Source: Candidatus Bathyarchaeota archaeon (GTDB taxonomy: Archaea > Thermoproteota > Bathyarchaeia > Bathyarchaeales > Bathycorpusculaceae). Taken from it: a stretch of 39,983 bases of DNA. Location of the stretch: NCBI GenBank assembly GCA_018396615.1, contig JAGTQT010000008.1, forward strand, positions 1 through 39,983. Reading direction: 5' to 3'. Positions within the stretch are counted from its first letter, which is position 1; each line of letters begins with the position of its first letter. Below are positions 14,376-17,910 of this stretch, piece by piece. Below the pieces are notes generated by a model. The model was given only the letters and a program-made list of their open reading frames with translations, did not search any database and had not been told where the DNA came from. Made by a program: the position numbers and the translations under genes.

Positions 14376-14876
14376 CTATTCACTTACCTCGACAAGCCCA
14401 AATATGTGCGAGAATATCGTGCCAAAAAGGAAAGAGCAGAGGAGATACCACCAGAAAAGAGAGACAAGAGTTCCAAGGAGCGGAAGCGAAATTAACGGTC
14501 CCACACCTGGAAAATAGGCAACGTGGATCAAAGCGGGTTGTCCATCCGGCCCAGTTGTTGTGTAGAAGCCGCCAAGGATTTGCCACATAATTATGAGAGG
14601 AACAATAAAGAGCAGGGACACTTTCATTGATTGCCACATCATCTTGGATTGAAGTTGCATGATATGTTGCTGTTTCTTCATCAGCTTTTCCAAGGTTTTT
14701 TTGTCTCCTGCTTTTTGAGCTTTTCTAAGTTCAGTGTTCCATTCTGAGACCTCTTTGCGCATTGCTTTTGTTTTTTCAGGGTTGGAGAGAAGGCGATTTA
14801 CAAGCGACGTGAGCAGAGAAACTCCCGCGGCTAAGGAAAGTATGAATATGGTTGATATTGGTATGCTCTGAAGCAA
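14376..14876 (-). CDS. DUF106 / EMC3-TMCO1-like membrane insertase (Oxa1 superfamily)
   Basis: A 166-residue protein. A first helix (about 8-26) is followed by a charged coiled-coil stretch (about 33-75, with KAQKAGDKKTLEKLMKKQQ) and then helices near 84-102, 118-132 and 135-158. This is the layout of archaeal DUF106 proteins, relatives of YidC/Oxa1, Get1, EMC3 and TMCO1 that insert membrane proteins. It follows secY by 76 nt and precedes eL34, the standard archaeal position. Adenylate kinase, often found between secY and this gene, is absent here. Confidence 0.9.
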   Translation of the reverse strand: MLQSIPISTIFILSLAAGVSLLTSLVNRLLSNPEKTKAMRKEVSEWNTELRKAQKAGDKKTLEKLMKKQQHIMQLQSKMMWQSMKVSLLFIVPLIIMWQILGGFYTTTGPDGQPALIHVAYFPGVGPLISLPLLGTLVSLFWWYLLCSFLFGTIFSHIFGLVEVSE

Positions 14877-14952
14877 GGCTACTCTGTCACCTGAGCTTTG
14901 ATACTTGCATTGATGAATTCTATTCTATAGGGAGATAACCGGGACGTCAGGG

Positions 14953-16431
14953 TTAACCTCCGAATATTCTTCTAAAGGCTGGATACATTTCCGCAGCACG
15001 TTCCCGCAAGAGTATCTCGTAATACTGATAGATTATCCCAACCGAAAGCAGGATACCCATTCCCGAACCAAAAACACCGAAGAAATCAGTGATTCCAGCA
15101 ACCAGTCCAACAAATATTCCGCCCAGAACAGTAACAGCTGGAATATAACGTTGAAGAATTGCTTGGATAGCCTGCCCAGACCGTCGGTAGCCAGGAATCT
15201 GCATTCCAGAATCCACAAGCTGCTTAGCCACGGTTGACGGGCCTAAACCACCGACTTCCAGCCAAGTGAGAGAGAACACAACACAAAAACCAACCAATAT
15301 TAAAAGGTACCCTATGGCTTGTTCAGGATGTTCCATTACACTTGCGAAGCTACGGGGTGCAGTCACATAGTAAACTAGACCGTTAATGGGGCGGATAGTG
15401 GGCTGGGTGCTTCCTGGAGGCGTATAGCGTTCATACTGCCCGAGAAGATTAAGCCAGAAATTACTGTTGTTCTGGTTGAAGTTGCTCCAAAGAATCTGTG
15501 AGAAGAAGTAGACATTCGCAAATAATGCGGAGGCAAAAATTACTGGAAGGTTAGACACGTAAAGTAGCTTAATCGGGTACCGGCTACGATATCCCTTGTA
15601 TCCCGCGTAAGACAAGGGTAACTCGACTCTGACGCCCTCCATGTAGATCACAACTAGAAACGCAACGATTGTTGCAATAAAACCAAACATAGCGGGCAAT
15701 GTTGGATCCTCTGGTCTTATGAAAACGTTTACCCACGACCACGTGCTTGTCGTGTTCGAGACTTGTGCACCACTCATTATTTTCGGAATCATCTGGGGAA
15801 GCGCTATAAACGCGCCGAAAGTGTTGGCATCAGACATCGGTCCCGCCACACCAAAGCAGTCCCAGAAGATGCTTTGAGCCACTCCAGCCATAATGAACAA
15901 ACTAATGCCGCTGCCGAAGCCCCAGCCTTTTTGCACCAATTCATCAAGCAGAAGCACGATCACTCCCACGGCTATGAGCTGGAGAAACACCATCAATGCC
16001 GTTGTTCCCGCTAGTTGACCGTACATGCCGCCAATTATGTAGGCGGATGCCTGAACACCTGTAAGTACAATGGAGAAAACTTTGCTAGCTGTCGTGAAAA
16101 GTGCTCGGTCTTCAGGATTAGACATGTCGCACTGAATCATCGCGGAACCAACCAGAAGCTGCAATATCAGTCCCGCCGTAACTATGGGGCCGATACCTAA
16201 CTCCATTAATGTGCCCCGCGTTGAGGCAAATATAGTTCTAAGTGCTGCAAGCTCACCCTCAGGCGCGGATGACACACCATAAAGCGGAACCTGCGCCATA
16301 ACTAGGTAAATTATAAGTGCGATAGCGGTCCAGAAGATTTTTTCATTGAATCTGACTCGCCGTTCAGGGGGCTTTACTTCTGGAATAACTCTTGCGATAG
16401 GCTTGAACAGGCTTAGGAAACGGCCGGCCAT
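14953..16431 (-). CDS. secY: Protein translocase subunit SecY
   Basis: A 492-residue channel protein with ten hydrophobic helices. After the cytosolic N-terminus the first helix is FWTAIALIIYLVMAQVPLYG, next to the plug region. ILLLDELVQKGWGFGSGISLFI (helix 4-5) and SGMQIPGYRRSGQAIQAILQRYIP (cytosolic loop 8-9) match the family well. It forms the Sec61/SecYE pore with SecE and Sec61-beta, encoded elsewhere. The start is an ATG 10 nt after the uL15 stop. The extracytoplasmic loop before helix 7, rich in Asn and Tyr (about 305-350), looks longer than average. Confidence 0.97.
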   Translation of the reverse strand: MAGRFLSLFKPIARVIPEVKPPERRVRFNEKIFWTAIALIIYLVMAQVPLYGVSSAPEGELAALRTIFASTRGTLMELGIGPIVTAGLILQLLVGSAMIQCDMSNPEDRALFTTASKVFSIVLTGVQASAYIIGGMYGQLAGTTALMVFLQLIAVGVIVLLLDELVQKGWGFGSGISLFIMAGVAQSIFWDCFGVAGPMSDANTFGAFIALPQMIPKIMSGAQVSNTTSTWSWVNVFIRPEDPTLPAMFGFIATIVAFLVVIYMEGVRVELPLSYAGYKGYRSRYPIKLLYVSNLPVIFASALFANVYFFSQILWSNFNQNNSNFWLNLLGQYERYTPPGSTQPTIRPINGLVYYVTAPRSFASVMEHPEQAIGYLLILVGFCVVFSLTWLEVGGLGPSTVAKQLVDSGMQIPGYRRSGQAIQAILQRYIPAVTVLGGIFVGLVAGITDFFGVFGSGMGILLSVGIIYQYYEILLRERAAEMYPAFRRIFGG

Positions 16432-16441
16432 GATTTAGCAA

Positions 16442-16882
16442 CTACTCTCCTTGTTCCCGAGTTTCTGTTAAGAGTTGTCCTCCGGCTTTTTCTATTTTTT
16501 CAGCAGCAGATCTCGAAGAAGATTGCACCTTAACAATAAGTGGTTTGGTAACTTTGCCTGTTCCAAGGAGTTTTGTGTAGCCTAGTCGTCCAAGGTCTAC
16601 GAGAAGCTTGTTTTCCTCAGTTTTCTCAGATAGTTTTTCAGCTATTTCATCAAGCCTTCCCACGTTTACTGTCTTCACTTTCTGTTTGAGACTTTTAGGC
16701 GACGTGAAGCCTTTCTTGCCAAAATAGTCTGGCTCGTATCTCAGAACCCAAGACCATCCTCTCTTGTGGCGCCCTGATTTTCTGAAGCCTTTCGAGCCGG
16801 TGTCACGGTGCTGACCTACTCTGCCGTAGCCTTCGGTTCTTGAGCCACGCTTCTTGCGGTGTTTTCTAAGTCTATGCGGCAT
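16442..16882 (-). CDS. rpl15: Ribosomal protein uL15
   Basis: A 146-residue protein with the basic Gly/Arg/His-rich N-terminal extension typical of uL15 (MPHRLRKHRKKRGSRTEGYG, GRVGQHRDTGSKGFRKSG). A compact C-terminal domain ends in ...IEKAGGQLL. It binds domain II of 23S rRNA in the large subunit. It lies 3 nt downstream of the Hsp20-like gene rather than directly after uL30, and 10 nt upstream of secY. Confidence 0.96.
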   Translation of the reverse strand: MPHRLRKHRKKRGSRTEGYGRVGQHRDTGSKGFRKSGRHKRGWSWVLRYEPDYFGKKGFTSPKSLKQKVKTVNVGRLDEIAEKLSEKTEENKLLVDLGRLGYTKLLGTGKVTKPLIVKVQSSSRSAAEKIEKAGGQLLTETREQGE

Positions 16883-16885
16883 GTT

Positions 16886-17359
16886 CTAACCTGCTAACTT
16901 GTCAATGGGCTTTTCTTCAACGCTTTTTTTCAGGCGTATTTCAAGTACGCCGTTTTTATGGTTTGTGCGAATTGTGTTTGGAATCACTCTATTAGGAAGA
17001 TTTAAACTTTTATAGTACTTGCGGTCAGACGTCTCAGCAGAAAGCGTCAAACGCTGATTCTTGACGTTGATACGTATATTTTCCATGGCGTAACCGACGA
17101 TCTCCGCGACCACCGTGATTTCTTTATCACTCTCGAGAATGTCTATAAGAGGCTCTGGCTCCCTGCATTTTCTTCCCCCAAGAGCTCGCGGAACTCTATA
17201 CTTGTAGGCAAAAGGTTTTCTTTTAAGTTCCAAAGCCTTGAATGTTTGCGAGATCTTCTGTTTTTTTGTTTTTCTAAGAGCTTTTTCAAACCATTGTGAA
17301 CGTTTCCTGCTTCTTCGCCATTTAGCGCTCAATCTTGCCCTCTCCCATTTCCGTTGCAC
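16886..17359 (-). CDS. Hsp20/alpha-crystallin-domain protein inserted in the ribosomal cluster
   Basis: A 157-residue protein. Residues about 68-146 form an alpha-crystallin/CS-like beta sandwich: PEPLIDILESDKEITVVAEI, then ENIRINVKNQRLTLSAE, and NGVLEIRLKK carrying the G-V-L-x-I ending of Hsp20 proteins. The first 65 residues are extremely rich in Lys and Arg and free of acidic runs, unlike ordinary small heat-shock proteins, which suggests RNA or ribosome contact (inference). The gene sits between uL30 and uL15, normally neighbours. It starts with GTG 3' of its own TATA-like box at a distance fitting a leaderless mRNA, and is preceded by a terminator-like hairpin. Function unknown; a ribosome-associated chaperone or an assembly factor is possible. 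Confidence 0.8.
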   Translation of the reverse strand: MQRKWERARLSAKWRRSRKRSQWFEKALRKTKKQKISQTFKALELKRKPFAYKYRVPRALGGRKCREPEPLIDILESDKEITVVAEIVGYAMENIRINVKNQRLTLSAETSDRKYYKSLNLPNRVIPNTIRTNHKNGVLEIRLKKSVEEKPIDKLAG

Positions 17360-17380
17360 ACGAAGAATAGCAGAAGCAAC

Positions 17381-17391
17381 TATAAAATGTA
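17381..17391 (-). promoter_or_regulatory. Internal TATA box driving the Hsp20-like gene, uL15 and secY
   Basis: The minus strand reads ACATTTTATAG just upstream of the GTG at 17359. The distance from the TATA centre (about 17385) to the GTG is about 26 nt, exactly where archaeal transcription begins. The mRNA would then be leaderless, starting at or beside the GTG, which also explains the missing ribosome-binding site. Confidence 0.55.
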
Positions 17392-17399
17392 TCGCAACG

Positions 17400-17421: not shown

Positions 17422-17910
17422 TTAGAGCATGCGGTTTACAAGCGCGTTAATTTCGGCGCCTCGGTAGCCGAGTTCTCCGCCACTGGTAAAGCTTCTTTTT
17501 ATGTTGCCTTTGAAGCCCTTTGTGGGTGGATGCAGCTTAAAGTAAGGCTGAATTTGAGGCAGCTTCCAGTATTCGGCTTTGCAATTAAACAGAGCATCTG
17601 CTAGCTTCTCAATCGACTTGTAGCTAATTTTCTGCAGATACTCTTCTGTAAGTTTCTTGTCGCCGACGAGTCTTCCCCTTTTGCTTAATAGAAGCATCAC
17701 AGTTTCCTTGGAGGCTTCTCCCCATGTGACGTATGCACGGACAACGTTAAGCATACCAACGAAAGCAGGACGGTTATCTATCAGAACGGCACGGTTGTTC
17801 CGTGTCAATCTAAGCATCTGCAATGTCTCTCTGGCTTCGCGCCGGGCACTTATTGTTCCGCGAACCCTTACAGCAATGATGCATCTGCGTTGTGTAGCGT
17901 CTTCAGCCAC
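17422..17910 (-). CDS. rpl30: Ribosomal protein uL30
   Basis: A 162-residue archaeal-length uL30. The ferredoxin-like core reads CIIAVRVRGTISARREARETLQMLRLTRNN, with the L30 signature VLIDNRPAFVGMLNVVRAYV following. The C-terminal archaeal/eukaryotic extension ends in FTSGGELGYRGAEINALVNRML. It binds 23S rRNA near the 5S particle. It starts 1 nt after the uS5 stop and is followed by a terminator-like hairpin, so the upstream ribosomal transcript may end here. Confidence 0.95.
   Translation of the reverse strand: MAEDATQRRCIIAVRVRGTISARREARETLQMLRLTRNNRAVLIDNRPAFVGMLNVVRAYVTWGEASKETVMLLLSKRGRLVGDKKLTEEYLQKISYKSIEKLADALFNCKAEYWKLPQIQPYFKLHPPTKGFKGNIKRSFTSGGELGYRGAEINALVNRML

Follow-up and report, generated by a model that had tools for sequence, protein, structure and literature searches.

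The 39,983-nt stretch of Candidatus Bathyarchaeota DNA analysed here (the window) carries, in its spc ribosomal operon, a gene for an Hsp20-type protein (sHSP); its genome belongs to a family of Bathyarchaeia (f1) spanning 33 coded genera. Our main reading, to which we assign a probability of about 0.4, is that the f1 sHSP is an old Hsp20 of this operon that has been remodelled and coupled to uL15 and that may act as a small holdase tethered to the ribosome or to rRNA. The sHSP ORF (16886–17359) lies between the genes for uL30 (17422–17910; PF00327, E = 1.4e-11) and uL15 (16442–16882; PF00828 (L15/L27A), E = 7.4e-17), which starts 3 nt past the sHSP stop, and secY (14953–16431; PF00344, E = 2.8e-71) is the next gene of the unit; all are on the minus strand. 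Coordinates and Pfam matches of the neighbours agree with the original prediction as to the ORF, its location between uL30 and uL15, its distance of 3 nt from uL15 and the presence of secY downstream. Elsewhere on the same contig, homologues of dnaK and grpE are located at 132–2506, ~15 kb from the sHSP unit. In many archaea, an adenylate kinase gene is situated between secY and a DUF106-like gene; none is present between secY and the gene for a DUF106-like membrane protein in the window (14376–16431). At the contig end (37712–39845), two tandem, near-identical thiolase-like reading frames lie ~961 bases apart, and a direct repeat of 300 nt without mismatches is listed there; an assembly duplication is the most likely cause.

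By profile and by fold, the window protein is a member of the Hsp20/alpha-crystallin superfamily. In the 157-residue reading of the ORF, the Pfam HSP20 model (PF00011) matches residues 73–150 (E = 9.5e-8, 32.5 bits, cut-off 20.8; E = 4.8e-8 for the shorter CDS described below), and the same model matches all 51 family members examined. The NCBIfam archaeal Hsp20 equivalog model NF041800 scored 89.8 bits (E = 1.4e-25), which is below its curated cut-off of 140, and its match covers only residues 67–149 of the 157-residue reading. The best PDB sequence match was 4RZK (E = 6.4e-17), named by Foldseek as the alpha-crystallin domain (ACD) of SsHsp20.1. In the AlphaFold model, residues 61–140 of the shorter CDS (16913–17152, minus strand) form a confident alpha-crystallin sandwich of seven strands (pLDDT about 84–91) without the long inter-strand loop found in dimer-swapping sHSPs, and the best Foldseek match was 4rzk (E = 8e-9, 46% identity, rmsd 1.3 Å over 81 columns). 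Profile, sequence match, model and structural match all bear out the alpha-crystallin fold originally proposed. It is highly improbable that the protein is instead a CS/p23-like co-chaperone or a structural component resembling ribosomal proteins. Weak matches to CS-domain models occur in 28 of the 51 members and the tail composition resembles that of ribosomal proteins, but in the window protein the CS model PF04969 reached 15.4 bits, under its cut-off of 21.3, whereas HSP20 was over its own; the CS domain of Sgt1 ranked far below SsHsp20.1 as a structural match, and the N-terminal head gave zero matches to PDB sequences up to E = 10.

The gene is conserved throughout the family. Full-length relatives were found at loci named as Bathyarchaeota MAGs, the nearest being 91% identical. 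A search of the class covered 257 genomes, most of which are MAGs. Head-to-tail matches to the window protein were found throughout f1 and in family f7, and the matches in other families were mostly domain-only matches to other Hsp20s. All 84 f1 genomes having uL15 contain a strong sHSP match, and comparison of the match coordinates showed that in 83 of them the sHSP gene immediately precedes uL15 on the same contig; in the remaining genome, the two genes are on separate contigs. This arrangement was confirmed in all 69 f1 genomes whose loci were fetched. In several f1 genomes (e.g. G101, G123 and G073), uL30 is found elsewhere, and sHSP, uL15 and secY are still together. A chance ORF is ruled out by the presence of orthologs in every uL15-bearing f1 genome and by dN/dS values below 1 in the close pairs computed, and a recent insertion private to the window genome is ruled out by the family-wide orthologs at this slot. 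The absence from close relatives that would have told against the original prediction was thus not found, the gene being upstream of uL15 in every f1 genome where both could be placed. The head itself gave dN/dS values of 0.10–0.30 (eleven close pairs), indicating that the heads are under purifying selection.

The orthologs share a common start, [M/L/V]SAKWRR, behind a purine-rich Shine-Dalgarno (SD) sequence. In the window, this conserved start corresponds to the TTG at 17332–17330, preceded by the SD-like GGGAGAGGG (17338–17346, minus strand), and yields a CDS at 16886–17332 encoding 148 residues with a 59–60 residue head. The open frame extends further upstream to a GTG at 17359 (157 residues), which is disfavoured as the true start by the conserved start of the orthologs; on sequence comparison, the TTG is better placed. 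The 157-residue ORF of the original prediction is real, and its product is shortened to 148 residues. In six loci of genus g5 (L076, L127, L128, L129, L148 and L149), an ACG preceded by a strong SD takes the place of ATG, TTG or GTG at the conserved position, so these sHSPs may start at a non-canonical ACG codon.

The head (residues 1–60; 17153–17332, minus strand) is rich in Lys and Arg, as originally noted, with 37% K+R and a net charge of +19. Among 67 f1 orthologs, the net charge of the head averages +15.1 (range +8 to +24), compared with +13.3 in f7, +0.7 in other copies at the slot and −0.5 in dispersed Hsp20s. The head is predicted to be disordered (pLDDT about 44–59) except for a short low-confidence helix. 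In the alignment, a SAKWRRSxKRxKW anchor and a PLID sequence at the domain entry are conserved, and the head is poorly conserved past its first ~15 residues, with a variable middle. Pfam profiles run on the 51 members gave just Hsp20-like matches and weak others, with no ribosomal-protein homology of the head. A C-terminal IxI/V oligomerization motif is typical of sHSPs although not universal. The tail of the window protein (KPIDKLAG and stop; 16886–16912, minus strand) has no such motif, and a motif scan found it absent in 66 of 68 f1 members, the window protein included. Of 24 dispersed copies scored, 23 have the motif, and the one without it stops at a contig end; most dispersed paralogs end in IKIE or similar, and an ordinary Hsp20 is kept elsewhere in the genome (e.g. 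on contig C28). IxI has been tied to oligomer formation in a review in which dimers are described as active forms of archaeal sHSPs (PMC9133787).

A GCGATACNTTTTATAG-like sequence located 52–65 nt before the sHSP start is predicted to be a dedicated conserved promoter of the sHSP unit. In the window, it takes the BRE/TATA-like form GCGATACATTTTATAG (17380–17395, minus strand); its 15-base core occurs exactly once in the genome, and no other site in the 40-kb window matches the 16-base form within three mismatches. The promoter was found at 65 of 68 f1 loci. Shuffled sequences would give an SD at 31 of the 68 sHSP starts and at 17.4 of the 68 uL15 starts; the observed numbers were 56 and 18, respectively, so that uL15 is at chance level. 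These counts are over related sequences and do not represent independent events. The promoter is also present in families f4 and f7, the two nearest sister families, the promoter-leader block is conserved across f1 loci, and the predicted 5′ UTR of the sHSP is about 20–30 nt, mostly SD. In f1, the gap between the sHSP stop and the uL15 start is mostly −11 to +5 nt, and in families without the sHSP gene, an SD precedes uL15 in 12 of 18 cases. Because SD sites are no more frequent at uL15 than expected by chance and its start codon is at or close to the stop of the sHSP gene, translation of uL15 is probably coupled to that of the sHSP. Co-expression with uL15 and SecY, already part of the original prediction, is strengthened by the dedicated promoter and the apparent translational coupling. 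The conserved C-terminal xAG was ruled out as an SD for uL15 by the chance-level SD count. A possible operator with dyad symmetry where transcription is predicted to begin, AATGCCATT, is not claimed, since just ~12 of the 67 loci have it in exact form and the window does not have it. In f1 loci, a partly conserved AATGCCATTGTA block, sometimes a short dyad, follows the CGATA motif at a distance of ~25 nt, close to where transcription is predicted to begin; it is absent from the window and could be an initiator or operator.

Hsp20 genes at this slot are patchy across the phylum. Families f4 and f9 carry a classic Hsp20 of about 180–205 residues between uL30 and uL15, with N-termini of the type WWRRRKKKRPWF..DEFDRLE.. 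and, in most, a GFSMSVGPDGKPVIREFGN motif. An Hsp20 also follows uL30 in f10, f12 and f19; in f10 (L095 and L107–L109), no uL15 was seen after the Hsp20 within the stretch read, and the operon seems to be split there. Slot copies occur outside the class in f30, f32, f45, f47, f49 and f52, most other sampled families lacking one, and uL30 adjoins uL15 in f2, f5, f6, f8 and many other families. The classic Hsp20s of f4, f9, f10, f19, f30, f32, f45, f47, f49 and f52 share the slot with the f1 sHSP (f10 beside uL30 only), but their N-termini are longer and near-neutral in most, the IxI motif is mostly kept, the gap to uL15 is 10–75 nt, and an SD precedes uL15 in five of the six checked. A branch with support of 95/93 in a maximum-likelihood tree has the slot copies of f1, f4, f7, f9, f10, f12, f19 and f32 on one side, although f12 and f9 are long branches of unsure placement. 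The f1 sequences group together (100/98), and housekeeping Hsp20s from dispersed loci are placed elsewhere. A topology uniting all slot copies in one group was not rejected (p-AU = 0.456). These comparisons indicate that an Hsp20 in the ribosomal cluster is an old Thermoproteota arrangement, repeatedly kept or re-gained, and not an Asgard oddity.

The heads of f1 and f7 keep the ancestral opening (SAKWRRSRKRSQWF and SRKWWKRRKRNPWFD), yet are shorter and far more basic, which argues that the head was remodelled and not fused. Fusion with a ribosomal-protein or RNA-binding domain was rejected because the head matches nothing in the PDB, the Pfam matches were just Hsp20-like or weak, and intermediates occur in f4, f7 and f9. 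The original view that a chaperone domain had been joined to a basic head of rRNA-like character thus gives way to one in which the f1 head is a shortened and basified ordinary Hsp20 N-terminus. In the distant family f12, the slot Hsp20 of L094 (genome G026) has a short head, no IxI and a very long branch, and is possibly a case of convergent remodelling.

We know of no ribosomal operon context for SsHsp20.1 of Sulfolobus solfataricus (PDB 4RZK), which resembles the window protein in its ACD (46% identity, rmsd 1.3 Å); compared with it, the window protein has a short, strongly basic head and a tail without IxI. SsHsp20.1 is described as active in dimeric form (PMC9133787). Tirumalai et al. (2023) reported that the S10-spc cluster of Thorarchaeota and of an Odinarchaeote has gained an Hsp20 gene, for which they suggested horizontal transfer (PMC10833476). 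That gene lies in the same conserved ribosomal cluster as the window sHSP, but in Asgard archaea, and the text of that report does not give its exact slot or describe a promoter, coupling, a basic head or loss of IxI (PMC10833476). Given this report and the patchy occurrence in the phylum, the position alone is not new, and the original view that such a chaperone is described under no known name is not supported. A literature search of limited scope found nothing on Bathyarchaeia and no description of the remodelled head, IxI loss, promoter or coupling, an absence that is no proof of novelty. Escherichia coli IbpA resembles the f1 protein as an sHSP with a cationic RNA-binding surface and binds its own 5′ UTR through cationic residues (PMC10474464), but RNA is bound by Arg93 within the ACD, not by a head, and its gene is not in a ribosomal operon.

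In our main reading, an archaeal Hsp20 would have settled long ago in the spc operon and later been remodelled in f1, where it is the first gene of an sHSP-uL15-secY unit that has a putative conserved promoter to itself. Translation of uL15 would require ribosomes finishing the sHSP cistron, so that the sHSP would be made constitutively, in step with uL15. Loss of the ancestral N-terminal segment and IxI, the drivers of large oligomers, would leave a low oligomeric state, i.e. a small, dimer-like, ATP-independent holdase. Its disordered, strongly basic head may tether it to rRNA or the ribosome surface, where chains that are still being made or are not yet assembled, e.g. those of SecY or of basic ribosomal proteins, could be under its protection, the general heat-stress role being left to the ordinary dispersed Hsp20. 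A ribosome-linked role is plausible, and tethering to the ribosome or RNA by the head is the favoured mechanism; the tethered holdase is favoured by the fold, the position kept beside uL15 and secY even where uL30 is elsewhere, the promoter, the SD pattern and coupling, the contrast in head charge (+15.1 versus −0.5), the dN/dS values of the heads, the SAKWRRSxKRxKW anchor, the IxI loss and the RNA-binding precedent of IbpA (PMC10474464). Against tethering, a tail that is disordered and basic can attach to polyanions of many kinds or may simply reflect drift that is tolerated, most of the head is poorly conserved, and coupling alone could be enough to retain the gene. Most spc-located Hsp20s outside f1 and f7 have near-neutral heads and IxI, so a ribosomal location alone is not tied to a ribosome-binding head.

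Those same full-length copies, found in the same slot in many families, together with the variable middle of the f1 head, are what would be expected if the protein were an ordinary general holdase that happens to be encoded in the ribosomal operon, where expression is constitutively high, with a head basified by lineage drift and directed at no specific target. We regard this as somewhat unlikely, since a net charge of at least +8 in 67 of 67 f1 heads measured, purifying selection, and the family-wide loss of IxI while a normal Hsp20 is retained elsewhere in the genome all count against it. Less likely still is a translational leader or autoregulator, in which the protein or its translation would control uL15-secY output and the head would bind its own mRNA in the manner of IbpA (PMC10474464). 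Such a role would fit the lack of an SD for uL15, its start at or near the sHSP stop and the conserved promoter-leader block, but the short predicted 5′ UTR, mostly SD, and the location of the RNA-binding residue of IbpA in the ACD speak against it.

Few ribosome-bound chaperones are known in archaea. Ribosome-associated chaperones such as those of the trigger factor and NAC types bind the ribosome near the exit tunnel; the features of the f1 protein that point in this direction are just its co-expression and its basic, disordered head. The sHSPs are regarded as stress-induced aggregate sequestrases. That the f1 protein is a dedicated ribosome-tethered sHSP, converted from a stress-storage oligomer into a constitutive co-translational holdase coupled to uL15, and thus an alpha-crystallin chaperone of nascent chains or ribosome assembly, is a tentative and rather doubtful proposal. 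If true, it would mean that an sHSP has been recruited to routine protein synthesis and locked to uL15 and SecY by promoter, position and apparent coupling across 33 genera, and that the archaea of this family own an alpha-crystallin-based nascent-chain or ribosome-assembly chaperone.
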